A stretch of DNA of 16,986 nt, from contig JAFGON010000100.1 in the NCBI GenBank assembly GCA_016926475.1, positions 1-16,986 of the forward strand, read 5' to 3'. Position 1 is the first letter of the stretch. Each line of letters starts with the position of its first letter. This document shows, in pieces, positions 224 through 16,986 of the stretch. Origin of the DNA: a candidate division WOR-3 bacterium (GTDB taxonomy: Bacteria; SDB-A). The notes under the pieces are model-generated. The model had not been told where the DNA came from and searched no databases. It saw only the letters and a list, made by a program, of their open reading frames with translations. The position numbers and the translations under genes are program-made.

Positions 224-3200
224 ATGGATAGAACTTTCAAAGTACTCTTTTTAATGCTTCTTACAGTCCCTGTAATGAACCCTATTGCAGCTTTTGGCAC
301 AAGTGAAGTCATGAAAATGGAAGTAAACTCTGAAGGGAACAACGGGCTTGAATTGAGCTTCTCTCTCGGATTTTATGAAATAAGGGATTTTGAAACCGGA
401 GGAAAAATATTTCAGGAAATAATAGCATCCGGAATTGTGCTCCCAAACGAACCAGGTAAACCTTATTTCCCTACTTATTCAGAGGTTTTTGCAGTTCCGA
501 GCGGAGCGGAAATAGTTTTAAACGTCAATAATGAAATTACCAGAACCGTGGAAGATGTTTTGCCGGTTCCATCTTTCATAATACCGGCTGACAACGACAA
601 TTCTCCAATTTCTTATGTCCCCGACCAGTCGATCTATGAAGGAAACATGCCGTACCCTGATCAAAATGTTTTTGTATCGCAAAGGTGGAAGATTAGAGGC
701 GTAGACCTCATAACCGTCACTGTAATACCTTTTAGTTGGAATCCGGTTCTGAGAAAGTTGACCGTATATGAAAATATAGATTTTTCCATATCGTTTGTAG
801 GCGGTTCGGGCAGGATTGGTGAAGAAAGACTACGGACACGAAATTGGGACAGAGTCTTGAAGTCAATTGTAGCTAATTACAATTCACTTCCGAAAATCGA
901 TTATTCGAAGAGGATTGAAGAAGCTCTTGGAGATTCAAGAGACAACGCTGAATTTTTGATTATTGTACCCGACGATTCAATTTTTATTTCATGGGCTGAA
1001 AGCATTAAAGACTTCAGAGTTGAAGAAGGAATAATAACCGAAGTTTTCACTTTGACCGAAATAGGGGGAAGCACTTCGACGATAATTGAAAGTTTCATAA
1101 ACGATGCTTTTTATAACTGGACTATTGCTCCCGAAGCAGTTTTGATCCTGTCTGATTATCCCAACAGCGGGGACGGATACGGTGTAGTAGCTCCTATCTA
1201 CAACGGATATTGTGCTTCTGACAACATTTACGCCGATATTGACGGAGATAATCTTCCGGACCTCGCGATTGGCAGGATATGCGCTCAGAACGAAGATCAC
1301 CTCAGGGATATGATAACGAAAGATTTAAACCTCGAAAGAAATCCGAATACAGAAATGCAATTCTACAAAAACCCAATATCAGCTTGCGGGTGGCAATACG
1401 AGAGATGGTTTCAACTCTGCGCGGAAGTGATCAGAGGTTTCTGGGCTAACTCTCTTGGTAAAGACCCTTTAAGAGTTTACGCAATATATCAATCCCCGAA
1501 CCCGGCTCCAGGTATGCAATGGTCTTCAGCGGCGAACACGCAGACTGTCGTCAATTATTTCAACGCTTTGGGTTATATCGATCTGACAGTTCCCAGCACC
1601 ATCACTTGGAACGGAACAGCTCAGGATGTCATCGTCGGATTAAACAGCGGCGCTTTCATGCTGCAGCATAGAGACCATGGAAGCGAGAGTGGCTGGGGAC
1701 AACCTGATTTTTCTGTCGGCAGTATCAATCAGCTTCAAAATTACGACACAAAATATCCCTATGTAATGTCCACAAACTGCCTCACAGGAAAATATAACAG
1801 TTCCGGGCAAGTTTTTGCCGAGAGGTTTCACAGAATAACCGACAGGGGCGCTGTCGGTGTCAACGCCGCGAGTGAAGTCTCTTATTCTTTTGTAAACGAC
1901 GTCTACGCATGGGGAATTTATGATTATATGTGGCCGTGGTTTGACCCTAATCATGGAGTGGGAGGTCAGGCGGACGTAAGACCGGGTTGGGCTACAATGT
2001 CTGCCAAATATTATCTCTTTTCTTCCTCTTGGTGCGGTTCGACTTCAAAACCGGTTACCTATCATTTGATGCATCATTTTGGTGACCCATACATGAGGCT
2101 ATTTTCCGAGGAACCCCAGCATCTTTCTGCAATATACCCTGAAGCAATTTTGGAAGGTGTCGATTCTTTCCGTGTATGGGCTCCGGAAAGCAGTATTGTA
2201 GCCTTCTCGCAGGGAGGAGAAGTAATAGGAAGGGGTGAAGGCGACGGATCGTGGCAATATTACGATATTGAACCTCAAAATGCCGGGGATACAGTTAAGG
2301 TAGCGGTTATTAAGCAGAATTATTACAGAAACGTCGGACACCTTCCTGTTGTGCCTGCTTCACTTCCTTATATAGTCTATTCGCACATAAGCGACACATC
2401 CGGAGGACACGGTGACGGTCAGATAAATCCTGGCCAGGCATATTCTCTGACGGTTCAGGTGGCAAACTGGGGTGGGGCGAACGCCCAAAACGTCTTCGGA
2501 CACCTTTCTTCTTCAGACCCGAATGTCAGTATCGCCATGGATACTGTATCGTACGGAACTATAAATTCAATGGACACGACCAACACAAATGAAACCCTCG
2601 GATTGCAAATTTCAAACGGGGTACAAGACAGCACGACAGTCAATTTCGATATAATTTGCAGAGACTCGCAGGATTCCGCCTGGACGAGTCAGATAAGTTT
2701 GTTGGTGAATTCTCCCAGACTTGAAGTCTCTGATATCTCAGGACCGGTAAGTTTAAATCCAGGGGATGATTTTAAATTTTCGGCTGCCCTTCAAAATTTA
2801 GGATCTGGAACAGCCCACGGCATAGAATTCAAGTGCAGAATAGCCGACCCATACATAACCGTCATGGATTCAACTGAATCCCTCGACAGCCTGAGCAGTC
2901 AACAAGAAGCTGTGTTTGACAGCGCTTTTAGGGTAATTATTGACCCGAGCTGCCCCCAAGGTCATTTTACGGATATGATCTTTGTGTCCACGTCTGGGGG
3001 AGGCATGACTTTCTCGGATACATTCCGGTTCGGTGTCGGAGTTTCTTTCGTGGAAGATTTTGAGACCGGAGGAACAAACTGGACATACACAGGTCCTTCT
3101 TCATGGCATGTAACCGAACACAGATACCATGGTGGACAAAAATCCATGTATTGCGGAAACGAAAACACCTGGGTCTACTCAAATTCGGTGGCTAATGCGA

Positions 3201-3865
3201 GGGTAATAAGCCCTGATCTTGACTACACCAACAACAGCGTCCTTTCATTTTGGCACTACTACGATATGGCGAACAATTACGACAAAGTTCAGCTTCAATA
3301 CAGTATTGACGGAGGTACGAGCTGGAATCTTATAAATCCAGAAGAAGGTTACACGGGAGCATGGGGTTACACCCCATACGATTCTATTTACACCGGTTCG
3401 CAAACGGTCTGGGAAGAACAGCATGTCAGATTTCACGGCAACGGGACTTTGAAGTTTGCCTGGCTTTTCTTTTCTAACCCGACTCTGTCCGCTGAAGGAT
3501 ACTACTTCGACGATGTCAGCTTGACACTTGGCTCGGGTTTTGTGGGAGTTGATGAGGAAGAAGAATTGACCGGAGGAGCAGGAGAATTCATTTTCGGGTT
3601 GAAAAGAGTATTTCCCAACCCTATGAAAAATCGTGCCATGATTTCTTTCAGTATTGGTGAAGAAGTGAACACGAGCATAATTGTTTACGATGTTTCGGGC
3701 AGAACCGTCAGAACTCTGGTCGAAGCCGTTCTTCGTCCGGGGAACTACCGCACCGAATGGGACGGAAGAGATGACAATGGGACGTTTGTGGGGAGCGGGA
3801 CCTATTTCTACAGAATGACAGCCGGATCTTTCAGCGCCGGAGACAAACTAATTTTGATCAGATGA
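224..3865 (+). CDS. Secreted gingipain-like (C25 family) cysteine protease with Ig-like repeats and FlgD-type C-terminal tail
   Basis: This 1213-residue exported protein starts at an ATG with GGGAGGG 5 nt upstream. Residues 1-24 form a signal peptide (basic start, hydrophobic core, AAFG). Residues 30-235 resemble the C25 propeptide (PGKPYFPTYSE motif). The catalytic domain spans roughly 242-628 and carries the expected His-Cys dyad: His485 in HRDHGSE and Cys519 in STNCLTGKY. A calcium-type loop DIDGDNLPD lies at 338-346 and the domain closes with HFGDPYMRLF. Then come an Ig-like segment, two CARDB-like repeats (about 720-940, each with a PG-rich start), a jelly-roll/MAM-like module (952-1102) and a FlgD-like tail (about 1124-1213) ending SGTYFYR...KLILIR. 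The tail suggests export and surface attachment by a type IX-like route, but no secretion genes are present here to confirm that. Family membership is well supported; cleavage specificity is unknown. The gene heads a cluster with a second C25 protease 20 nt downstream. Confidence 0.9.
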   Translation: MDRTFKVLFLMLLTVPVMNPIAAFGTSEVMKMEVNSEGNNGLELSFSLGFYEIRDFETGGKIFQEIIASGIVLPNEPGKPYFPTYSEVFAVPSGAEIVLNVNNEITRTVEDVLPVPSFIIPADNDNSPISYVPDQSIYEGNMPYPDQNVFVSQRWKIRGVDLITVTVIPFSWNPVLRKLTVYENIDFSISFVGGSGRIGEERLRTRNWDRVLKSIVANYNSLPKIDYSKRIEEALGDSRDNAEFLIIVPDDSIFISWAESIKDFRVEEGIITEVFTLTEIGGSTSTIIESFINDAFYNWTIAPEAVLILSDYPNSGDGYGVVAPIYNGYCASDNIYADIDGDNLPDLAIGRICAQNEDHLRDMITKDLNLERNPNTEMQFYKNPISACGWQYERWFQLCAEVIRGFWANSLGKDPLRVYAIYQSPNPAPGMQWSSAANTQTVVNYFNALGYIDLTVPSTITWNGTAQDVIVGLNSGAFMLQHRDHGSESGWGQPDFSVGSINQLQNYDTKYPYVMSTNCLTGKYNSSGQVFAERFHRITDRGAVGVNAASEVSYSFVNDVYAWGIYDYMWPWFDPNHGVGGQADVRPGWATMSAKYYLFSSSWCGSTSKPVTYHLMHHFGDPYMRLFSEEPQHLSAIYPEAILEGVDSFRVWAPESSIVAFSQGGEVIGRGEGDGSWQYYDIEPQNAGDTVKVAVIKQNYYRNVGHLPVVPASLPYIVYSHISDTSGGHGDGQINPGQAYSLTVQVANWGGANAQNVFGHLSSSDPNVSIAMDTVSYGTINSMDTTNTNETLGLQISNGVQDSTTVNFDIICRDSQDSAWTSQISLLVNSPRLEVSDISGPVSLNPGDDFKFSAALQNLGSGTAHGIEFKCRIADPYITVMDSTESLDSLSSQQEAVFDSAFRVIIDPSCPQGHFTDMIFVSTSGGGMTFSDTFRFGVGVSFVEDFETGGTNWTYTGPSSWHVTEHRYHGGQKSMYCGNENTWVYSNSVANARVISPDLDYTNNSVLSFWHYYDMANNYDKVQLQYSIDGGTSWNLINPEEGYTGAWGYTPYDSIYTGSQTVWEEQHVRFHGNGTLKFAWLFFSNPTLSAEGYYFDDVSLTLGSGFVGVDEEEELTGGAGEFIFGLKRVFPNPMKNRAMISFSIGEEVNTSIIVYDVSGRTVRTLVEAVLRPGNYRTEWDGRDDNGTFVGSGTYFYRMTAGSFSAGDKLILIR
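3077..3529 (+). repeat. Copy 1 of a duplicated 151-codon jelly-roll-like module
   Basis: This stretch encodes residues 952-1102 of the first C25 protease. It aligns without any gap to 6622-7074 in the next gene. By hand count about 89 of 151 residues are identical, including GPSSWH.TEH, SMYCG.EN, APYDSIYTGSQ/TPYDSIYTGSQ and EGYYFDDVSL. The fold looks like a MAM/choice-of-anchor-J-type beta sandwich that could bind carbohydrate or act as a spacer. Confidence 0.8.
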
Positions 3866-3885: not shown

Positions 3886-6800
3886 TTGAAGAAAATTTTC
3901 ACAACATCCTTGTTTGCCATTCTCGCTTTTTATTCACTGACGGCTGGACAACTTGTTTTCGATTTTTCGATAGACAGATCGGATTTCAATTTGATTTCAA
4001 TCGGAGAGAGATCTTTAATTCAAATGGAAGACGGAATGGCATCTTCTGAGAAAGGCAGCCCTTTTCTACCTTCTTTGAAAATTAACTATTCAATACCATC
4101 GCGTTCCGTGGTCAGAGATGTTGTAGTTGAAGACGCGGAGTGGATTTATTTAGGAAACTACAGGATATTTCCAAGCCAGGGGTACGTCCGTCTCGATGAG
4201 AATTTTGTATTTCACCCTGAGGATCCTGAAATCTACTCGGAAAACGCTTATTACCCTGAAAATATTCTGGAAAATTTTACAACGGGCAACAAGTCCGGTT
4301 TTTCAATTTGCGCTCTCGAACTGAACCCATTCCGGTATAATCCAGCGACAGGCGAATTGTATTATCTCGAGCGTTGCAGATTAAAAGTAGATTTCGATGA
4401 TGGTCTTGGAGATATTGTGTATCTGACTGAAAAGCAGTCAACGGAGTTTTCACGGCAGATCGAGGGAATAGTCGAAAATCCCGGTGATGTTTTTGTTTTC
4501 AGCCCCATGATAAAGGATCTCAGGGATTCCTCGCACGAATACGTTATAGTGGCGCCTTATTCAATTTCTCAGGAATTTGAAGAACTGATAGAGTGGAAAT
4601 CTAGAAAAGGGTATTCATCCGTTGTAGTCCCTGTTGAATCAATTTACGTCAATTACAGCGGCTATGACGACATGGAGAAGATCAGGAATTTTGTCAAGGA
4701 TATGCACCAGAACCATGGTCTCATATACCTTGTTTTAGCCGGTGATCATGATAATTTAGGCTCGAGGGTAATACCAATAAGAAACGGTTCGACGACCGAC
4801 AACACGCCTTCCGACCTGTATTTTTCTGATGTCGTCCCTTATTCTTCGAACTGGGACGGAAACGGCAATCATGTATATGGAGAATACAACATAGACGGAT
4901 GCGACTGGTATAGCGATGTCTATGTCGGTAGGTTCCCAGTGAACAATTCTCAGGAAGTGCAGAGATGGATATCCAAAGTCATTGGGTACGAACAGAATCC
5001 GCCTTCAGGCTATCTTGAAAAATCATTGATGGCGGGGGCGGGTCTCTGGCCAAGTGTCAACTACTACGGGGACAGGGTCTGCAATTATATAGCCGACAAC
5101 TTCCTTCCCGTTCATTGGCAGCATGTCAAAATGTACCAAACAGACACTCTTTCCTTTCCTCAAGGATTCACAGATTCATTCAGCGACGGATGCGCGTGGA
5201 GTCAAATCTGCGGTCACGGCAACCCCGACGGTATATACTGGTACAATCCGGGCGGATCCATTATAGACGGTTCTTCGGCTTCGGCTCTGACAAACGGAAT
5301 GAAACTAGGGGTGGTTCATTCCATAGCATGCCAGCCCGGCTGGTTTGACAACTATGAATGCGTCGGGGAGAAATTATTCAACGCTCCAAACGGAGGAGCC
5401 ATCGCTGTCCAGTTCAACGCGAGGTATGGCTGGGGGGCACCTCCGTCTTTCGGACCTTCTGAATGGCTGTGTATTTGGTTGGCTGAGGTGGTTTTCACCA
5501 ACGAAGTGTGGAATATTGGTGCCGCCCACGGTTTGAGTAAAGATGTAATGGTTCCAGGTTTAAGCCAAGGTGAACATTGGTGCGTCACGGAGCTCAATTT
5601 ATTCGCTGACCCTGAAACTCCTGTGTATTCATCTGAACCTCAGTCGCTCTATCCCACTTATGATCCGGTGGTCAGCCTTGGATCGAATCAGTATTCGGTC
5701 AACGTCTCAAATTCGAGGGATCCTGTGGAAGGCGCTGTTTGTTGCCTTTCAGACAGAGACGAACCTTCAATAAAATTTTATGCTGTTACCGACCCCTCGG
5801 GAAATGCAGTTGTAAGTACAAATTTTATCTCCACGACAAGTGTCGTGCTGACGGTGACCTCACATGACTACAGGGCTTTCCTGGATACTATACCGGCTTC
5901 AAGCTCATCTTCTTTTGTCGCTTTTACGGGAATAGACACAGTTATCGGCGGTTATCAAAACGGACAGTTCAATACCGGGTGTCATTATTCGGCGAAAATT
6001 GATGTAGCGAATTTTGGAACGCAGACGGCAAACGCGGTCAGGGGGGTTTTGTCCTGTTCTGAAACCGGAATAGCATTTAATCAAGATACGCTTGTATTCG
6101 GGAATATTGATCCTTCAGACACCGTCACTTCTGCCGGCTCCGCTGCCTTTTCTGTTTCAAACAACATTCCCGACGGCACCACTTTTCACGTGGATCTGAC
6201 CTGCTTCGATCAAGACGACAGCACTTGGTTGAGTTCTTTTGATTTGACAGTAAATTCTCCTCAAATTGATTTTGTTGTTTTAAAAGGCCCCCAGACAGCT
6301 TCACCCGGTGACACTTTGCTTCTGACTCCTGTTGTTAAGAACACTGGAAGCGCTAACGCTTTTAATTCCACGGTCAAAATGAGAACCACCAACACAAACA
6401 TTTCGGTTTTTGATTCTTCTGAGACGGTAGCGTGCTTACATCCCGATTCCTCAGCTGAACTCTACAGACAATTTGCAATCGCCATATCCCCATCTTGCCC
6501 TGAACCGACATACATAGATCTCGTCTTTGAGATCAAAACCGAAAGTCTCGATGTTTTTTGCGACACCTTCGTCCTTTATGTGGGGCAAGCTTTTGAGGAG
6601 GATTTTGAAGGAACCCCTGGGGACTGGATATTTTCAGGCCCTTCTTCCTGGCACACCACTGAACATACATCTAACAGCCCTACTCATTCAATGTATTGCG
6701 GAGTTGAAAACAATTGGACTTATTCCAATTCAATAGCTAATTCCAGGGTTATTTCACCAGCTGTCGATATAGCAAGAGGCAGTCAACTGACCTTCTGGCA

Positions 6801-7401
6801 TAAATACGAGCTGTACGACAACAAGGATAAAGTGCAGGTGATGATTTCAACTGACGGAGGATCAACCTGGGACCTTATAAACCCGGTTCAAGGATACACG
6901 GGAAAATGGGCATACGCACCTTACGACTCAATTTATACGGGCAGTCAGCAGACATGGCAAAGGCAGGATTTTATTCTTGACTATGAAGGAGAAGTAAAAC
7001 TGAGCTGGCTGTTTTTCTCCAACCCTTCACAGAACGCCGAAGGCTACTATTTCGACGATGTTTCATTGCATCTATCTTCAGGTCTCACCGGAGTCGAAGA
7101 GCCGGTAGAACCTTCACCTTTGAAAGATTTCGAGCTGTTCAGGGCTTATCCGAATCCGACTCAAGGAGAGATCCTGATCTCTTATTCTCTGGGGGTTTCC
7201 TCTATAGTTGAGGTGTCGGTTTTCGATATCACGGGAAGACAAGTTATCCGACTTTACAGCGGAGAGCAGAACCCAGGAAGATATTCGGTTGAATGGAACG
7301 GAAGAGACGAAAAGGGCGAATTAATGCCTTCGGGCACCTATTTTTACAAAGTAACAGCATGCGGACAAATTACAGGAGACAAATTTATAGTCGTGAAATA
7401 G
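3886..7401 (+). CDS. Second secreted gingipain-like (C25 family) cysteine protease with the same C-terminal architecture
   Basis: This 1171-residue exported protein starts at a TTG, 5 nt after AAAGGAGA, giving MKKIFTTSLFAILAF, a clear signal peptide (about 1-21). A C25-like propeptide (EKGSPFLPSLK) comes first. The catalytic domain is at about 217-584, with His444 in ICGHGNPDG and Cys482 in HSIACQPGWF as the predicted dyad. The calcium-type loop of the first protease is replaced here by YNIDGCDWYSD before VGRFPV, so metal dependence may differ. After an Ig-like region and two CARDB-like repeats (about 680-900) come the jelly-roll-like module (913-1063) and the FlgD-like tail (about 1083-1171, ending PSGTYFYKVTA...KFIVVK). 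The 20-nt gap to the preceding protease points to one transcript. The catalytic halves are much more diverged than the C-terminal halves, so the two enzymes probably differ in substrate preference. The specificity itself cannot be read from the sequence. Confidence 0.9.
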   Translation: MKKIFTTSLFAILAFYSLTAGQLVFDFSIDRSDFNLISIGERSLIQMEDGMASSEKGSPFLPSLKINYSIPSRSVVRDVVVEDAEWIYLGNYRIFPSQGYVRLDENFVFHPEDPEIYSENAYYPENILENFTTGNKSGFSICALELNPFRYNPATGELYYLERCRLKVDFDDGLGDIVYLTEKQSTEFSRQIEGIVENPGDVFVFSPMIKDLRDSSHEYVIVAPYSISQEFEELIEWKSRKGYSSVVVPVESIYVNYSGYDDMEKIRNFVKDMHQNHGLIYLVLAGDHDNLGSRVIPIRNGSTTDNTPSDLYFSDVVPYSSNWDGNGNHVYGEYNIDGCDWYSDVYVGRFPVNNSQEVQRWISKVIGYEQNPPSGYLEKSLMAGAGLWPSVNYYGDRVCNYIADNFLPVHWQHVKMYQTDTLSFPQGFTDSFSDGCAWSQICGHGNPDGIYWYNPGGSIIDGSSASALTNGMKLGVVHSIACQPGWFDNYECVGEKLFNAPNGGAIAVQFNARYGWGAPPSFGPSEWLCIWLAEVVFTNEVWNIGAAHGLSKDVMVPGLSQGEHWCVTELNLFADPETPVYSSEPQSLYPTYDPVVSLGSNQYSVNVSNSRDPVEGAVCCLSDRDEPSIKFYAVTDPSGNAVVSTNFISTTSVVLTVTSHDYRAFLDTIPASSSSSFVAFTGIDTVIGGYQNGQFNTGCHYSAKIDVANFGTQTANAVRGVLSCSETGIAFNQDTLVFGNIDPSDTVTSAGSAAFSVSNNIPDGTTFHVDLTCFDQDDSTWLSSFDLTVNSPQIDFVVLKGPQTASPGDTLLLTPVVKNTGSANAFNSTVKMRTTNTNISVFDSSETVACLHPDSSAELYRQFAIAISPSCPEPTYIDLVFEIKTESLDVFCDTFVLYVGQAFEEDFEGTPGDWIFSGPSSWHTTEHTSNSPTHSMYCGVENNWTYSNSIANSRVISPAVDIARGSQLTFWHKYELYDNKDKVQVMISTDGGSTWDLINPVQGYTGKWAYAPYDSIYTGSQQTWQRQDFILDYEGEVKLSWLFFSNPSQNAEGYYFDDVSLHLSSGLTGVEEPVEPSPLKDFELFRAYPNPTQGEILISYSLGVSSIVEVSVFDITGRQVIRLYSGEQNPGRYSVEWNGRDEKGELMPSGTYFYKVTACGQITGDKFIVVK
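6622..7074 (+). repeat. Copy 2 of a duplicated 151-codon jelly-roll-like module
   Basis: This encodes residues 913-1063 of the second C25 protease. It has exactly the same length as 3077-3529, with identity of about 60% by hand alignment. Several stretches are also close at the nucleotide level, such as around the YDSIYTGSQ and YYFDDVS codons. Tandem gene duplication followed by divergence of the catalytic half is the simplest explanation. Confidence 0.8.
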
Positions 7402-7435: not shown

Positions 7436-8485
7436 TTGCTGAAATACGTCGATTTTGCCGTGGAAGAAATTTTGCGTCTCTGTAAAATACCCAGCCCTTC
7501 GGGTTTTACGAGAGAAATAGAAAATCAAGTTTTCAATGAACTCACGTCTTTCGGTTTTCAGACCACATATTCCAACAAGAGGTCAATCCTTTCCCTTTTA
7601 GGGGGTGAAGGTCATACGCTGGTCCTCGCCGCTCACTTAGACACGCTAGGCGCTATGGTGAGGTCACTTAAGCCGAATGGAAGGTTGAGGTTTACAAAGA
7701 TCGGAGGATTTCCGGAAAATTTCATCGAGGGAGAGAACTGCACTATCCATACTCGAGAAGGGCGCACTTTTTCTGGAACTTTTCAGCTTTTAAAGCCTTC
7801 TGTCCATGTAAACAAGAAAGCCGCAGAAGAGAAAAGGGATGATGAAAACGTGGAAATTGTTGTTGATGAAAAGGTCAGAGACAAGAAAGACTTGATCTCA
7901 CTCGGCATCAGTCCGGGGGATTTCGTGTCTTTTGACCCCAAGACAGTTTTGACCCAAAGCGGCTTTATCAAGAGCAGACACCTCGACGACAAAGCGAGCG
8001 CGGGGATATTGATCGCGTTAGCCAAATTGCTGAAGGAAGAGAAAATAACACCGGCAAGAAAAGTTTACCTTCTTTTTACGACATTTGAGGAAGTAGGACA
8101 CGGAGCGTCTTCAGGTTTGCCTGAAGACGCCGAAGAAATAGTTTCGGTCGACATGGGGGCTGTCGGTGACGATCTTGAGACTGACGAATACAAAGTTTCA
8201 ATATGCGCAAAAGATTCTGGAGGACCTTACGACTTCAATGTCACCAACAAACTCATAGAGTTAGCGAAAAAGGAAAAACTTAATTACGCCGTGGATATTT
8301 ATCCTTTTTACGGCTCTGATGCTGAAGCGGCTCTTTACGCGGGCTTCGACGTCAGGCACGGCTTGATTGGACCGGGAGTTTCCGCCTCCCACGGTTACGA
8401 AAGGACGCACAGAGAAGGAGTTGAAAACACGCTGAAATTGCTGAAAGAATATGTCAATTCTCCGGTGGTTTCTGCTCTTTCTTGA
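7436..8485 (+). CDS. M42-family metallo-aminopeptidase (tetrahedral aminopeptidase/FrvX type)
   Basis: This 349-residue cytoplasmic enzyme has no signal peptide. It starts at TTG, 4 nt after GAGGAGG. All the expected M42 residues are present: His67 and Asp69 (AAHLDTLG), Asp184 in RHLDDKAS (bridging metal ligand), the catalytic Glu218 with ligand Glu219 (TTFEEVGHG), Asp239 (SVDMGAVG) and His319 (SASHGYERTH). The usual dimerisation/PDZ-like insert lies between about residues 75 and 170. Length matches the family (about 340-360). M42 enzymes form dodecameric shells that remove N-terminal residues from peptides using two metal ions. Close co-orientation 34 nt after two secreted endoproteases suggests it finishes the digestion of imported peptides. 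Some family members are annotated as endoglucanases, but that label is historical and unlikely here. Its 3' end overlaps the convergent LapA-like gene by 32 bp. Confidence 0.9.
   Translation: MLKYVDFAVEEILRLCKIPSPSGFTREIENQVFNELTSFGFQTTYSNKRSILSLLGGEGHTLVLAAHLDTLGAMVRSLKPNGRLRFTKIGGFPENFIEGENCTIHTREGRTFSGTFQLLKPSVHVNKKAAEEKRDDENVEIVVDEKVRDKKDLISLGISPGDFVSFDPKTVLTQSGFIKSRHLDDKASAGILIALAKLLKEEKITPARKVYLLFTTFEEVGHGASSGLPEDAEEIVSVDMGAVGDDLETDEYKVSICAKDSGGPYDFNVTNKLIELAKKEKLNYAVDIYPFYGSDAEAALYAGFDVRHGLIGPGVSASHGYERTHREGVENTLKLLKEYVNSPVVSALS
8105..8130. repeat. Perfect 11-bp inverted repeat inside the M42 gene
   Basis: Arms 8105-8115 (GCGTCTTCAGG) and 8120-8130 (CCTGAAGACGC) are perfectly complementary around a TTTG loop. 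They lie in the codons for ASSGLPEDA, just after the catalytic EEVGHG motif. No T-tract follows on either strand. Protein coding constrains the bases, so it may be chance, but it would form a stable mRNA hairpin. Confidence 0.75.
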
Positions 8486-8690
8486 CGCCTTTTAAAGTCT
8501 GTTTTAAAAAAGCGAAAACACTGCCTCCGGTTATCATACCGAGTATGTAGACTATTAAAACCTGCAGTGCCAGTGGAAGGGTCATCTTCCATGAGAGAAA
8601 GCAAAGCGTGACCGTCTGTCTGTTCTGAACGGCGAAAATGACCACCAAGCAGATAAATACAGTAATCAATACAATATAAACATACCGCAT
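8454..8690 (-). CDS. Small LapA/DUF1049-like membrane protein
   Basis: This 78-residue protein starts at MRYVYIV. Longer reading from upstream is possible, but the ATG at 8690 has an ideal AAAGGAGGAAAT ribosome binding site, which decides the start. There are two transmembrane helices: residues about 4-21 (VYIVLITVFICLVVIFAV) and about 38-60 (LPLALQVLIVYILGMITGG). Between them is QNRQTVTLCFLSW, the hallmark of LapA-domain proteins (QN...PVT..FL.W, then LPLAL). The tail FLKQTLKGVKKEQKPPEN is basic and probably cytoplasmic. In enterobacteria LapA proteins help assemble lipopolysaccharide with LapB; outside that group the role is unclear, and no lapB-like gene is seen. The gene overlaps the convergent M42 gene by 32 bp. 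Confidence 0.8.
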   Translation of the reverse strand: MRYVYIVLITVFICLVVIFAVQNRQTVTLCFLSWKMTLPLALQVLIVYILGMITGGSVFAFLKQTLKGVKKEQKPPEN

Positions 8691-9162
8691 ATTTCCTCCT
8701 TTGACCTTTGTTATACAACAGCAATTGTGCCCTAAGAAAATCATTATAAAGCCAAGAGGTCCGTTTACGGAACCAGTTATAAAACACGGGCGGTTTAAAA
8801 GTATAATACTACGCTTTAAGAAATACGAGGAAAATGGATAACTATTCTTGGAGAAGGAGATACAAACAAAACAGAGCATATTTTCTGCAAAAAATATAAA
8901 TTGGACTTCAGAGAAAAAATTGTCAATTGTTCTTAAAAGTTTAAAGATATTTTGGATAAATTTTCGGGGCTACAGCTTTTCATCATTCAACGCTGAGATG
9001 GAAAATTCTGATGATTATGAAATCCGGGACAAAATTTACGCTTGATGGATTTGGAGCAGCACACGAGTTATCAATTCGGAAAACAAGCAGCTATCTACAT
9101 TATGCTTTAAATTTATTTCAAGAGAGTATAATATATTCTACAAAATCATAAAGAGGTGGATT
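8691..9162. other. AT-rich divergent intergenic region with possible promoters and no convincing gene
   Basis: These 472 nt separate the LapA-like gene (minus) from the HerA-like ATPase gene (plus). A TATAAT on the minus strand at 8743-8748 could serve the LapA-like gene but has no good -35. A plus-strand TATAAT at 8802-8807, in a near-palindromic AGTATAATACT, precedes a 21-codon reading frame (8834-8899, MDNYSWRRRYKQNRAYFLQK then I) with a GAGG 3 nt before its ATG. It is very basic and aromatic and may be spurious. A longer frame with a TTG start (8848-9045) has no ribosome binding site and a random-looking composition. No tRNA-like cloverleaf or clear terminator was found. Confidence 0.5.
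9127..9132 (+). promoter_or_regulatory. Probable -10 element for the HerA-like ATPase gene
   Basis: A perfect TATAAT lies 30 nt before the TTG start at 9163, which would give a leader of about 24 nt holding the AAAGAGGTGG ribosome binding site. The -35 region (around 9104-9110, GCTTTAA) matches poorly, so this is a moderate call. Confidence 0.4.
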
Positions 9163-11541
9163 TTGCAGGATTTTGAAAAACTCGGTTTTTTCTATATTGG
9201 AAAAAAGTATGATTTTCAAAACAAAAAACTGACAAACGACTATTTTTTGTATGATTCCCGCGACCTGTTGACTCACGCAGTCTGTCTTGGTATGACTGGA
9301 AGCGGAAAAACAGGACTCTGCGTGACCCTACTTGAAGAAGCCGTTATTGACGGTATTCCGTCCCTGATTATTGACCCAAAGGGAGATATAGCAAACATAC
9401 TTCTGACTTTTCCCGAACTAAAAACCGAAGATTTTTTGCCGTGGATCAACCTGGACGATGCGAGAAAAGAGAATATGACCGAACATCAGTTCGCCGAAAA
9501 ACAGGCGAACATCTGGAAAAATGGAATTATGGAATGGGGGCAGAGCCTTGATAGGATAAATCTTTTGAAACAATCCTCCGATTTCAGAATATACACTCCA
9601 GGCAGCAACGCCGGTTTGCCTGTTTCTTTCCTCAGATCTCTGAAAGCTCCGAATATGAGAATTGCTTCAGACAGGGAATACTTGAATGAAAAGGTTAATT
9701 CCACGGTCACCAGTTTACTCAAGCTTGTCGGAGTTCAGGGAGATCCTCTGAACAGCAGAGAGCATATCCTTTTGGTGAATATTTTCGAGCATTTCTGGAG
9801 TGACAAGAAAGATCTCAACCTTGAATTGTTGATTCAATCGATTCAAAAACCGCCGATGAACAAAGTTGGAATAATGGATTTGGAAACTTTTTTCCCGGCA
9901 AAAGATAGGTTTGACCTTTCGGTTAAATTCAACAATATTATCGCTTCTCCTTCGTTCAATTCCTGGACAGCTGGAGCCCCTCTTGATATTGACGGATTTT
10001 TAAGGGATAAAAATGGAAAACCGCGTGTCAGTATTTTTTCCATATCTCATTTAAACGACTCGGAGAGAATGTTTTTTGTATCTTTATTTTTGACGAATCT
10101 TCTTGAATGGACAAGATCACAGGAAGGCACTTCGAGTCTGAGAGCAATTTTTTACATGGATGAGATTTTCGGCTATTTCCCTCCCGGAGCTATGCCACCC
10201 TCAAAGCCCCCTCTTTTGTCGCTTCTCAAACAAGCGAGAGCTTTCGGGCTCGGCGTCGTTTTAGCCTCTCAAAACCCAGTGGATTTGGATTATAAAGGGC
10301 TCTCGAATATCGGAACCTGGTTTATAGGAAGACTTCAGACGGCACGAGACAAAGAAAAACTTATCGATGGTCTTAAATCGCTCTCTATGAGTATGTCCGA
10401 AAGAGAAATTTCCGATATTATTTCCTCTATCGGCAAAAGAATTTTTCTTGTTAAAAACATTCATGGGGATAAAATAGAAATTTTGATGACCCGGTGGGCT
10501 CTTTCCTATCTCAGAGGGCCCATGACGAAAGAGATGATAAAGAAGCTGACGCCGGAAGACAGAGAGGGCGAAAAGGATGTTTTTCCAGATCCTGATCCAG
10601 AAATTTCAGATCAGTCATCGGCATTTTCATCGAGAATTACCGTTCCTCAGGATATCAATGAATATTTTATTCCTTGCGATTTAAATCAACAAAGAGGCAT
10701 TGTCTACAAACCGTATATTATGACTTCAGCGCGGATATTTTACAAGATCGGTAAAGATGTTCACGAAAAGAAATGTAGTTTATTTTCGCCTTTTTCAAAA
10801 TTGCTTGGCAGACCTGATCTCGACAACACAAAACATTTGGATTTTCAAATTCAAAACTTGACGGACAAGCCCTGCAGGGAGGACGCCTCTTTCATAGAAA
10901 TACCGGAAGAAGCTTTAAACGCCAAATATTTCGATAAAGCTTCAAAAATTATAAAAGACTGGATATACAGAAATGTTTCCGAAGAAGTATTGAAATATCC
11001 TTTTTTAAAGGAAGTTTCAAAACCCGGCGAAGGCGAGAAGGAATTCAGAACAAGAATTTCTCAACAAATGCGTGAAAAAAGAGATGAAGAAGTCGATGAA
11101 CTAAGAACAAAGTACGCCGCAAAGTTCGACAAACTTGAAGAAAAAGAGGCGAGAGCTTTTAACTCCCTTGAAAAGAAAAAAGACGAAGCCGCCGACCAGA
11201 AGTCACAGTCCGCAATTTCATTCGGCTCGACAATTATCGGAGCATTGATAGGAGGCAGAAGACTAAGCGTCTCCAATTTAGGCAGAGCTGCCACATCAGT
11301 AAGAAGCATTTCAAGAGTGAATAAAAAAAATAAAGAAGAGCAAAGAGCCCGGCAGAATTACGAAAAAATAGCAGAAGAGAAAAAGGATTTAAAAGAAGCC
11401 CTTGAGAAGGAGGTTTCTTCTCTTCAGGAAAAATTTGACGTTTCGAAAATTGAGTTTGAAAAGGAAAAAATATTCCCCAAAAAGGGCGATATTTTTGTCG
11501 ATTTGTCATGTCTTGTCTGGAGACCTTTCGCGGCAAATTAG
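9163..11541 (+). CDS. HerA/FtsK-type P-loop ATPase with coiled-coil C-terminus, function unknown
   Basis: This 792-residue protein starts at TTG, 4-5 nt after AGAGGTGG. Walker A is GMTGSGKTG (43-51, Lys49) and Walker B is AIFYMDEIFG (Asp333, Glu334), followed by KQARAFGLGVVLASQNPVDL as the sensor region and RWALSYLRGP near 450. The phrases IYTPGSNAGLPVS, FFPAKDRF and DMDE-type FYMDEIFGYFPP are signatures I recognise from a widespread bacterial family related to HerA and VirD4/TraG-like DNA pumps. A beta-rich region follows (about 490-620), then a charged coiled coil (636-683), a Gly-rich hydrophobic insert (GSTIIGALIGGRRLS, near 687-701) and a second coiled coil (719-770). It has no signal peptide or clear membrane segment. 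HerA proteins translocate DNA with NurA nuclease, but no nuclease or conjugation gene is adjacent, so a DNA-translocating role is inference. It stands alone and converges on the kinase gene after 31 nt. Confidence 0.8.
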   Translation: MQDFEKLGFFYIGKKYDFQNKKLTNDYFLYDSRDLLTHAVCLGMTGSGKTGLCVTLLEEAVIDGIPSLIIDPKGDIANILLTFPELKTEDFLPWINLDDARKENMTEHQFAEKQANIWKNGIMEWGQSLDRINLLKQSSDFRIYTPGSNAGLPVSFLRSLKAPNMRIASDREYLNEKVNSTVTSLLKLVGVQGDPLNSREHILLVNIFEHFWSDKKDLNLELLIQSIQKPPMNKVGIMDLETFFPAKDRFDLSVKFNNIIASPSFNSWTAGAPLDIDGFLRDKNGKPRVSIFSISHLNDSERMFFVSLFLTNLLEWTRSQEGTSSLRAIFYMDEIFGYFPPGAMPPSKPPLLSLLKQARAFGLGVVLASQNPVDLDYKGLSNIGTWFIGRLQTARDKEKLIDGLKSLSMSMSEREISDIISSIGKRIFLVKNIHGDKIEILMTRWALSYLRGPMTKEMIKKLTPEDREGEKDVFPDPDPEISDQSSAFSSRITVPQDINEYFIPCDLNQQRGIVYKPYIMTSARIFYKIGKDVHEKKCSLFSPFSKLLGRPDLDNTKHLDFQIQNLTDKPCREDASFIEIPEEALNAKYFDKASKIIKDWIYRNVSEEVLKYPFLKEVSKPGEGEKEFRTRISQQMREKRDEEVDELRTKYAAKFDKLEEKEARAFNSLEKKKDEAADQKSQSAISFGSTIIGALIGGRRLSVSNLGRAATSVRSISRVNKKNKEEQRARQNYEKIAEEKKDLKEALEKEVSSLQEKFDVSKIEFEKEKIFPKKGDIFVDLSCLVWRPFAAN

Positions 11542-14090: not shown

Positions 14091-15092
14091 ATGTCTTTTA
14101 ACTTAAGAAACAGAAATTTTCTTAAACTTCTCGATTTCTCCCAAAGCGAGATTAAATACCTTCTCGACCTGTCTTTTTATCTGAAAAAAGCCAAAATTGC
14201 TGGTTGTGAACAGCAAAGGTTGAAGGGGAAAAAAATTGCTCTCATTTTTGAAAAAGCTTCGACTAGGACGAGATGCGCTTTTGAGAGTGCCGCTTTTGAC
14301 CAAGGGGCTAATGTGACATATCTTGGCCCTGAAGGTTCTCATATGGGGAAAAAAGAGACCATTAAAGATACGGCAAGGGTTCTCGGAAGAATGTATGACG
14401 GTATTGAGTACAGAGGCTTCGGACAGGAAATTGTTGAGGCTCTGGCGGAATTTTCCGGTGTTCCCGTCTGGAACGGGCTGACCGACGAATTTCATCCAAC
14501 CCAGATACTCGCAGATTTTATGACCATGATTGAGCACGTTGAAAAACCGCTCTGCAAGACATCTCTTTGTTTTCTTGGAGATACGAGAAACAATGTCTCA
14601 AATTCATTATTAGTCGGGTCGGCTAAAATGGGATTGGATTTCAGGCTAGCTGGACCAAAAGACAGGCATCCGGAAGAAAAACTTCTCAATGATTGCCTAA
14701 AATTAGCTGAAATTAGCGGAAGTAAGATTACCGTGTCAGAGGATCCCGAAGAGGCTGTAAAAGGAGTCGATTTTCTATATACCGATGTATGGCTTTCTAT
14801 GGGGGAACCGGAAGATTTTTGGAGCGACAGGATAAAAAAAATGCTTCCTTATCAAGTCAACGAAAAATTGATAAAAAAAACCGACAACAAAAACGTCAAG
14901 TTTTTACACTGTCTTCCTTCATTTCACAACAAGGAGACATCGGTCGGAGAAAAAATCTTTAAAGAGTATAAACTCGACGGTCTTGAAGTCACTGAAGACG
15001 TCTTTGAATCATCATGTTCGGTAGTGTTCGACGAAGCGGAAAACAGAATGCACACGATAAAGGCAGTTATGGTTGCGACTCTAGGGGATTGA
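14091..15092 (+). CDS. argF: Ornithine carbamoyltransferase
   Basis: This 333-residue cytoplasmic enzyme joins carbamoyl phosphate and ornithine to give citrulline and phosphate. It starts at ATG with AAAAGGAG 6 nt upstream. The carbamoyl-phosphate signature is Ser57-Thr-Arg-Thr-Arg61 in [13 protein letters not shown], with His135-Pro-Thr-Gln138 in [10 protein letters not shown]. The ornithine-binding SMG loop is at 236-238 (DVWLSMGEP) and the catalytic Cys motif at 273-276 (FLHCLPSFH). The SMG loop separates it from aspartate carbamoyltransferase. Its length and the segments [14 protein letters not shown] and [23 protein letters not shown] are of the long OTC class, which includes both anabolic ArgF/ArgI and catabolic ArcB; no arcA, arcC or arg gene adjoins it, so the direction of flux is uncertain. 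It sits alone between its own promoter and terminator, as expected for a single-gene unit, and is divergent from the kinase gene. Confidence 0.93.
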
Positions 15093-15118: not shown

Positions 15119-15150
15119 AGCGACGCGATTTATCATCGCGTCGCTTTTTT
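15119..15150 (+). terminator. Intrinsic terminator of the ornithine carbamoyltransferase gene
   Basis: GCGACGCGAT (15120-15129) and ATCGCGTCGC (15135-15144) form a perfect 10-bp, GC-rich stem around a 5-nt TTATC loop, followed by six T. A15119 and T15145 can extend it. It begins 26 nt after the stop codon. Two copies of ACTTATAC (15095-15102 and 15111-15118) lie just before it. The right half also encodes the last residues of the convergent membrane-protein gene. Confidence 0.92.
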
Positions 15151-15402
15151 AAATGATTTGTTTCTGTAATAAAGCAATATATCTGCGATCACCATAAGAG
15201 CATTCAAAACATACAATAGGATAACCTTGTCGAAACTGTTAAAAACTTTATGTGCTATACCGCTTAAGTAGCCGAGTAAAATTATCCATAGAAAAAAAAC
15301 GCTCTTACCTTCGGTCTTTCTGGAGCGGTATGATTTCCAGATGGAAAAAGGCCAAGCGGAACCGAAGCATAACAACATCAGAGATTCAAAAAAGACTACC
15401 AT
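15133..15402 (-). CDS. Small three-helix PQ-loop/SemiSWEET-like membrane protein
   Basis: This 89-residue protein has three predicted transmembrane helices: about 2-20 (VVFFESLMLLCFGSAWPFS), 34-54 (SVFFLWIILLGYLSGIAHK) and 59-80 (KVILLYVLNALMVIADILLYY). Helix 1 ends in WPFSIWKSYRSRKTEGKS, a motif resembling the PQ-loop turn of SemiSWEET/MtN3-type half transporters, with the helix pattern of that fold. Similar small proteins of unknown substrate occur in Clostridia and other anaerobes. The ATG follows the protease stop codon with no gap (TAG then ATG), so it is probably translated by coupling; no strong ribosome binding site is visible. Its last codons and TGA stop lie inside the terminator hairpin of the convergent gene. 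Transport function is inferred from the fold only. Confidence 0.7.
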   Translation of the reverse strand: MVVFFESLMLLCFGSAWPFSIWKSYRSRKTEGKSVFFLWIILLGYLSGIAHKVFNSFDKVILLYVLNALMVIADILLYYRNKSFKKATR

Positions 15403-16491
15403 CTAAATTTCATTTATATCTGATTCATCAGAAGGAGCACAGCCGAATTTTTCAATCAAAAAATTGTCGAGTTTGTCGGCTCTTTTTGAAATTTCCAGCA
15501 TGTCGTTTAATATTTGTCCGGAAAAACTTGAATTTATATCGCTGAGGTGGATTCTGTAGGAGATGTATAAAATTCCTTTGTCAACACCTAAATAGAAAGG
15601 CAACTCGGGTTCGCTGAGAGTGTATCTGTAAAATTCAGTGAGATTCTCCTGGGGTAGCTTGACAAGCGGGCAGGTGACAATCAAGTAATTTGTTTTGTAC
15701 ACGAAAATCCTTAGAAGTGCGCTTCCCCGATGAAATTCCCAGAATTCATATCCGTTTCTTGCCAGGATTGGATCGATTCCCATTTTTTCTATTGCATTTT
15801 CGACAAAAACAGAGAGCTCGCTGAGGGGTGTTTTGCCGAAAAGTTTTTTCGAATCGATTTTTGCGCCGCAATTTTCGCAATACTCGTCTTCATGTTGAAG
15901 AAGAAAGCCGCAGGACGGGCATTTTACGGAATATTGACCTGGAGCTTTCGTCTGGAATATTTCCAGTTCTTTTTCTATGATGTCAGACGGAAGAGAAAAT
16001 CCCATGTTTTCAGCTTCTTTAAACTTACAGGTTGTTATACCGACAATTTTTCCTCCAGGCATAATCATCGGTCCTCCGCTGTTGCCTGGATTTATCGCGG
16101 CGTCAGTTTGAATATAATACTGACCGTTTATAAGCTGTTTGACGTTTGAGACAATTCCTTCCGTTACCGTGAACGGGTAACCGAAAGGATACCCAAGGAC
16201 AAGTACTTTATCCATATTTTTAACTTCATCCGCTTTGGAGAAATCAATGTCGGGTCCATCAATTTCCTTAGTAGGTTTTAAAAAAGCCAGGTCAAATTTC
16301 GGAGAAACAAGAATGACTTCGGCTTTAAAAGCTCTTTTGTCTGAATCTTCAACCGCGACTTCTCTTTCTCCATCGACCACGTGATAATTTGTTATGATCA
16401 AATTTTGTTTTTTTGAAAAAAACCCCGAACCGCTCCCTTTGGAAGTCTTTATTTTAAAAACCAACTTAAAAATTGAATTCAAATCCGCCAT
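15403..16491 (-). CDS. Cytoplasmic HtrA-like serine protease fused to a zinc ribbon and a YbjN/CesT-like domain
   Basis: This 362-residue protein starts at ATG, 4-5 nt after CGGGAGGA. Residues 15-180 form a trypsin-like S1C (DegP/HtrA-type) domain with the full triad: His37 (TNYHVVDG), Asp67 (FDLAFLKP) and Ser138 (GNSGGPMI). There is no signal peptide, transmembrane helix or PDZ domain, so it should act in the cytoplasm, unlike DegP. A four-cysteine zinc ribbon follows (Cys191, Cys194, Cys205, Cys208; CPSCG...CENCG). The C-terminal part (about 222-350, SELSVFVENAIEKMGI...) has the alpha/beta pattern of YbjN or type III chaperone-like (CesT) domains, a match by pattern only. It is followed at once by a membrane-protein gene and preceded by an unknown gene 15 nt upstream, so the three likely form one operon. 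The zinc ribbon and chaperone-like domain may recruit substrates or partners; the substrate is unknown. Confidence 0.85.
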   Translation of the reverse strand: MADLNSIFKLVFKIKTSKGSGSGFFSKKQNLIITNYHVVDGEREVAVEDSDKRAFKAEVILVSPKFDLAFLKPTKEIDGPDIDFSKADEVKNMDKVLVLGYPFGYPFTVTEGIVSNVKQLINGQYYIQTDAAINPGNSGGPMIMPGGKIVGITTCKFKEAENMGFSLPSDIIEKELEIFQTKAPGQYSVKCPSCGFLLQHEDEYCENCGAKIDSKKLFGKTPLSELSVFVENAIEKMGIDPILARNGYEFWEFHRGSALLRIFVYKTNYLIVTCPLVKLPQENLTEFYRYTLSEPELPFYLGVDKGILYISYRIHLSDINSSFSGQILNDMLEISKRADKLDNFLIEKFGCAPSDESDINEI

Positions 16492-16506
16492 TTTTCCTCC
16501 CGTATG

Positions 16507-16968
16507 TTATTTGGAAGTCATCACTTTTGTCATTGCTTTGAAAAGTTCATTGGCAGCTTTTTGCCAATCTTTGCCCGAAGAGTTTTTTAAACCTTCATTT
16601 AAATTTTCTTCTATATTCCTTGGAACGAGATACCTGTAGTATAGATTGTAAATATCGAAGAGCAGAAACACAACAGCGCTCAAATGGCCTGAAGACGCGA
16701 TATCTTTTTCAGCGTTGTTGTAATAATTCTGCAGTTGCTGTTTGACAACCGGCAAAGAAGCGTGTCTGCGCACAGAGATGAGAAATTCTGTCTTGTAAAT
16801 AGAGTCAGAAAACTTTTCAAAAGAGAGGTTTTTCATGTTTTCGAAAAACTTTTGGGAATTTTCGACTTTTTCCGCTGGAGGTATTTTCGCGTAAGACTCG
16901 TTTATGGCTTTCTCAATTTCGGTTCTCAAAAAACCTTGAGGAGAAAATATATAGTCAATTTTCATCAT
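16507..16968 (-). CDS. Unrecognised mostly helical protein upstream of the zinc-ribbon protease
   Basis: This frame encodes 153 residues from the ATG at 16968; a second ATG follows at 16965. I do not recognise the family. Most of the protein is predicted helical and charged (for example EKVENSQKFFENMKNL and RNIEENLNEGLKNSS), with one hydrophobic stretch near 96-117 (LSAVVFLLFDIYNLYYRYLV) that is more likely a buried helix than a membrane segment. No cysteine is present. No clear ribosome binding site precedes the ATG pair, and the frame stays open to the edge of the window (16986), so the true start may lie further upstream and the gene may be 5' truncated here. Its stop is 15 nt before the protease gene, so they are probably co-transcribed. 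It may be a partner or substrate of that protease, which is inference from position only. Confidence 0.6.
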   Translation of the reverse strand: MMKIDYIFSPQGFLRTEIEKAINESYAKIPPAEKVENSQKFFENMKNLSFEKFSDSIYKTEFLISVRRHASLPVVKQQLQNYYNNAEKDIASSGHLSAVVFLLFDIYNLYYRYLVPRNIEENLNEGLKNSSGKDWQKAANELFKAMTKVMTSK

Positions 16969-16986
16969 AGATATAAGGGCTGATTC

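Follow-up and report, generated by a model that had tools for sequence, protein, structure and literature searches.

The window, i.e. the whole stretch of 16,986 nucleotides that was analysed, is the entire contig C100 of genome G000. Close to one of its ends it carries, on the minus strand, the gene of an HtrA-type (S1C) protease, preceded by a partner gene that is truncated by the contig end and followed by a small gene for a PQ-loop-like membrane protein (Table 1). On the downstream side the cluster is closed by a terminator-like hairpin that reaches into the 3' end of the PQ-loop-like gene and belongs to a convergent gene of the ornithine/aspartate carbamoyltransferase family (14091-15092, plus strand). 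Elsewhere in the window there are two tandem gingipain-type C25 peptidases (224-3865 and 3886-7401, plus strand) with C25 propeptide, FlgD_ig and Por_Secre_tail-like C-termini, which suggest that this genome of a candidate phylum has a type IX-like secretion. A small LapA-domain membrane protein (8454-8879, minus strand, E=2e-7) overlaps the end of an M42 peptidase gene on the opposite strand, and a HerA/DUF87-like ATPase of 792 aa (9163-11541, plus strand, E=4e-6) is also present, for which genus members show a relative in the corresponding gene region.

Table 1. Features of the protease cluster; positions are those of the window unless another contig is named, residue numbers are those of the protease.
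Feature	Position	Strand	Remark
Partner gene, 3' part (C-terminal helical domain)	16507..16986	-	truncated by contig end
Partner gene, 5' part, 205 codons, TY-chaperone domain	G000:C38:4-615	-	runs off contig end
Protease gene, 362 aa	15403..16491	-	S1C domain, C4 zinc ribbon and C-terminal YbjN/TY-chaperone domain
S1C (HtrA-type) catalytic domain, ~residues 19-175	15967..16437	-	H37, D67, S138 in GNSGGP
Zinc ribbon, ~residues 189-212	15856..15927	-	C191, C194, C205, C208
C-terminal YbjN/type-III-chaperone-fold domain, ~residues 225-349 (~125 residues)	15445..15819	-	profile and predicted topology
PQ-loop-like three-helix membrane protein gene, 89 aa	15133..15402	-	
Terminator-like hairpin of the convergent carbamoyltransferase gene	15119..15145	+	11 pairs, T-run on plus strand

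HtrA enzymes normally act outside the cytoplasm and pick their clients with PDZ domains. The protease of the window has the catalytic domain of these enzymes, as it matches Pfam Trypsin_2 with E=3.8e-27 and has HtrA 1l1j as its nearest solved relative in a PDB sequence search (E=1.4e-26), the closest solved relatives of this domain being 1l1j, MucD and HtrA1. With the model of the whole protein, the VIA fold search against solved folds yields HtrA proteases at Z 24-27, and only HtrA proteases among the matches listed, a ranking that applies to the protein as a whole. The triad that the earlier note had read from the sequence is well conserved, with His37 and Asp67 invariant in 18/18 protease homologues and Ser138 kept in 17 of them, and the four cysteines of the CPSCG...CENCG zinc ribbon are invariant in all 18 as well, the match to Pfam Zn_ribbon_3 itself lying under the cut-off (E=1.1e-4). 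Also the NCBIfam model degP_htrA_DO (TIGR02037) covers the catalytic part only, and with 148.9 bits it is reached far below its cut-off of 416. A second S1C protein of the same genome (G000:C29) matches the protease in no region other than the catalytic domain. A Pfam scan found no PDZ domain in the protease or its 18 homologues, and in 18/18 proteases there is no export or transmembrane segment (no 19-residue hydropathy peak of at least 1.6); in the window protease, the catalytic domain begins near residue 19. The protease seems to stay in the cytosol. This agrees with what had been proposed before, namely a cytoplasmic S1C protease that has neither a signal peptide nor a PDZ domain and carries a zinc ribbon and a YbjN/CesT-like domain in place of the latter.

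The C-terminal alpha/beta domain, for which the YbjN/CesT-like nature had been suspected, is confirmed by a profile match to YbjN (2plg, E=1.8e-7 over ~128 residues) and by its predicted topology, which in the model is a helix, 3-4 strands, a helix, 2 strands and a long helix. This alpha-bbb-alpha-bb-alpha order is predicted also in the N-terminal domain of the partner, and the same order of elements is given for YbjN and the type III chaperones (PMC3575483). By profile, the partner matches YbjN 2plg with E=1.1e-3. Pfam assigns YbjN to 2 of the 18 protease homologues and neither TY-Chap1 nor YbjN to the window protease, whereas TY-Chap1 (T3SS/YbjN peptide-binding chaperone) matches 9/17 partner homologues with a best E of 2.1e-6, the scores of TY-Chap1/YbjN on the close relatives of the window's partner being 18.7-25.6 versus a gathering cut-off of 27. 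A profile alignment of the two families, protease C-terminal against partner N-terminal (hhalign probability 98.2, E=4.2e-14, 121 columns), shows at the sequence level that the chaperone-type domains of protease and partner are homologous. In the partner model, residues 33-161 match YbjN and type III chaperones (ExsC, VecA, one subunit of the SycN-YscB heterodimer) in fold, with Z 8-9.5 (3kxy Z 9.5, 1xkp_C Z 9.2, 2plg Z 8.7). Since the AlphaFold models, which were made from 4 sequences, are of middling confidence (protease pLDDT 76, pTM 0.59; partner pLDDT 70, pTM 0.43), the sequence-profile results weigh more than the folds.

Small stand-alone proteins that are clearly akin to the protease C-terminal domain are found as well, at L136 (G208, 2081-2527, plus strand), L106 (G003) and L105 (G721), and these are possibly ancestors or cut-down relatives of the domain. 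In addition, at L135 (G294) a stand-alone TY-Chap1/YbjN gene (E=3.3e-17) overlaps the end of a PspA/IM30 gene (3898-4584 and 4577-5005, plus strand), which is in line with the CesT/Tir-PspA dyads described in PMC11237479.

The partner is larger than it appears in the window. Upstream of the protease, a 153-aa open reading frame (16968..16507) had been described as an unknown helical gene, but its frame stays open as far as position 16986, where the contig ends, and it aligns only to the C-terminal ~155 residues of a protein that in relatives has ~368 aa; it is in fact the 3' part of the partner gene, misread as a small gene because the contig end cuts it. The 5' part, which is the one that reveals the nature of the protein, lies on another contig of this genome, C38, with ~4 residues missing between the two parts, and the gene upstream of the partner on C38 resembles a thiamine-pyrophosphokinase gene that lies upstream in a genus member. 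Across the pairs, the partner has ~370-440 aa and consists of the N-terminal TY-chaperone (YbjN/CesT-fold) domain and a C-terminal helical domain, for which the sequence reveals no family, no solved relative and no known effector. The fold matches of the helical domain to FliS (1orj, Z 9.2) and to the sacsin HEPN domain (Z 5.9) are below the significance level for helical bundles, and an effector function was rejected on these grounds.

Protease and partner are a two-gene module that occurs together in at least three bacterial phyla. When a profile of the zinc ribbon and the C-terminal domain was used as query, the full protease architecture was found in 14/395 Bacteroidota genomes, a fifteenth match, in G208, being the stand-alone domain mentioned above, and the full partner is present in the same 14 genomes and in 0 of the 381 others, three more genomes giving weak partial matches. 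With fixed totals, the chance of such a 14/14 overlap is 5e-26, a figure from counting that ignores phylogeny. As the partner profile was made from neighbours of the protease matches, the search for the partner depends in part on that for the protease, although the partner of G099, which is unlinked and was left out of the profile, was still recovered at E=1.5e-105. In 12 of the 14 Bacteroidota pairs the two genes are neighbours, the partner lying upstream, and the intergenic spacing is mostly between -17 and +65 nt, with one case of 326 nt and one long overlap that results from an over-called start. The pair is also linked in each of the three genomes that represent the window's genus (split over C38 and C100 in the genome of the window itself) and in 1/42 genomes of the Fermentibacterota, the phylum of Hyd24-12 bacterium UBA6080. 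The Fermentibacterota pair is 60-70% identical, yet it has different neighbours, which suggests that the pair was transferred as a unit. The trees of protease and partner agree in their two main clades and in the majority of sister groups. The module is rare, as the Bacteroidota count shows, and a widely sampled survey of 386 genomes gave no full match beyond the window's genus. Cargo of phages or plasmids was considered and rejected, since a tblastn search with a Fulvivirgaceae sequence found no match to the C-terminal part in phage and plasmid records and the matches on viral contigs were to the S1C domain only. The same applies to a known defence gene, as PADLOC matches are limited to the protease domain and the partner is left unmatched.

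The third gene of the cluster is a different matter. The earlier note had described a three-gene unit in which the small membrane protein might bring the protease to the membrane, and it had named linkage across phyla as its own test. Linkage across phyla was found for protease and partner and, in the genomes searched, is lacking for the third gene. The PQ-loop-like gene does begin directly after the protease stop codon (TAG-ATG), as had been noted, and it lies 3' of the protease in 3/3 genomes of the genus, which is what a membrane-linked unit with the PQ-loop protein as an anchor of the protease would look like, the Pfam PQ-loop match itself being under the cut-off (E=0.002, 18.3 versus 22 bits gathering score). 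However, no homologue was detected in 11 other genomes searched, 10 of them with the pair (Fermentibacterota, Bacteroidota), and homologues with 39-60% identity (one weak match aside) are found in eight other genomes, none of which gives a match to the protease profile. A membrane-linked three-gene unit as a general feature is largely refuted by this distribution, membrane targeting through the small protein lacks support, and an anchoring function of this kind is very improbable. The PQ-loop-like gene is judged to be a passenger in an operon-like position, outside the core module.

It might be argued that the partner is an inhibitor, comparable to a zymogen propeptide or an antitoxin, or a substrate that is cut upon a signal and thereby frees its helical domain as an effector. 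The strict co-occurrence and the partner-first gene order fit this as well as they fit an adaptor, and conflict systems are known in which trypsin-like peptidases are coupled to dedicated neighbours (Trypco1/2; PMC7159879). The partners, however, give no match to Pfam Trypco or in PADLOC, and the helical domain does not match any known effector. Another indication comes from G099 and G240, which form one clade in both trees and in which protease and partner are encoded on different contigs. In G240 the catalytic serine of the protease is replaced by glycine and in G099 the GNSGGP motif is altered, and the protease branches of both are long, but both retain an intact partner as well as the zinc ribbon and the chaperone domain of the protease. 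The chaperone half thus seems to keep its use when proteolysis is impaired. A partner that is kept together with a damaged protease fits poorly with a function as nothing but inhibitor or substrate, a function that does not predict the intact partner of G240. An inhibitor or substrate is considered unlikely.

It is more probable that the apparently cytosolic HtrA-type protease and its partner constitute a chaperone-protease module in which paired chaperone-fold domains receive or gate substrates. The homologous domains of the two proteins would pair with each other. Chaperones with the YbjN/type III chaperone fold usually form dimers, and peptide binding and dimerisation are described for the fold (PMC3575483, PMC9503650), with SycN-YscB as a heterodimeric chaperone of this fold (title of PDB 1xkp). 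The paired domains would then take an unfolded or tagged segment of a client, and the client may either be handed over to the attached protease or switch the protease on by its binding, while the helical domain of the partner may recognise the client or report its state. The earlier idea that the protease is controlled by the binding of a partner is strengthened by the presence of a homologous domain in the partner. Instead of acting generally on unfolded proteins, the protease could also have a housekeeping function and cut one cytosolic regulator or envelope-stress factor, with the chaperone domains used for docking only. Proteins with a YbjN fold are indeed regulators or partners of specific proteins (DR1245-DdrB, PMC3575483; BacA, PMC10948618), and CesT/Tir-type chaperones adjoin pspA in many genomes (PMC11237479), the pair at L135 being one such case, but the neighbours of the module vary between lineages and do not indicate a specific client, and such a function seems distinctly improbable. 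Neither a substrate nor a stimulus is pointed to by the neighbour genes, which are not conserved between lineages. If one goes a step further than the chaperone-protease module as such, the pair may represent an as yet undescribed bacterial class of cytosolic chaperone-proteases that work independently of ATP, in which a trypsin fold is gated by a heterodimer of the type III chaperone fold and clients are directed to destruction or to a stress or defence response; this proposal is plausible but clearly tentative.

Within bacterial cells, most regulated proteolysis is carried out by ATP-driven enzymes like Clp, Lon and FtsH, and the function of the YbjN fold is poorly understood. If the chaperone-protease module is true, client binding would be coupled to proteolysis in a novel manner, by a chaperone-fold domain that stands in for PDZ and an obligate partner that has this fold too, and the YbjN fold would gain a two-protein system that can be tested. 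As the pair is small, predicted to be soluble and found in Bacteroidota, its direct expression and assay should be feasible. A protein that combines trypsin, zinc ribbon and YbjN was not found in a literature search, which reached few subscription journals and did find papers on TY-Chap and YbjN proteins.

Several known systems share single aspects with the module. The ADP-ribose-linked TY-Chap systems, too, have TY-Chap1 in a conserved gene neighbourhood, but the part of their description that was consulted mentions no protease (PMC9503650), and beside the pairs analysed here no gene related to ADP-ribose was recognised. In the Trypco conflict systems (PMC7159879) a trypsin-like peptidase likewise co-occurs with a dedicated neighbour, but here the partner is a TY-chaperone with no Trypco domain in any of 17 partners (Pfam), and among the neighbours of the pair, which were read by eye, no NTPase, vWA protein or second-messenger enzyme was recognised. 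With the HtrA/Deg proteases (MEROPS S1C; DegP, DegQ, DegS, HtrA1) the window protease has the catalytic domain, the triad and the GNSGGP motif in common, but it differs from them by lacking an export segment and a PDZ domain, by possessing a zinc ribbon and a YbjN/CesT-fold domain, and by its obligate genetic partner. Closest on the chaperone side are YbjN, the class I type III chaperones and TY-Chap1 (PF22551, PF10722; 2plg, 6vu7, 1xkp, 4h5b), with which the domains share the order of elements, the profile match and the predicted fold. Known proteins of these kinds are small, stand alone and act as chaperones or regulators, whereas here, with no secretion system nearby, one TY-chaperone domain is fused via a zinc ribbon to a protease and the other one to a helical domain.
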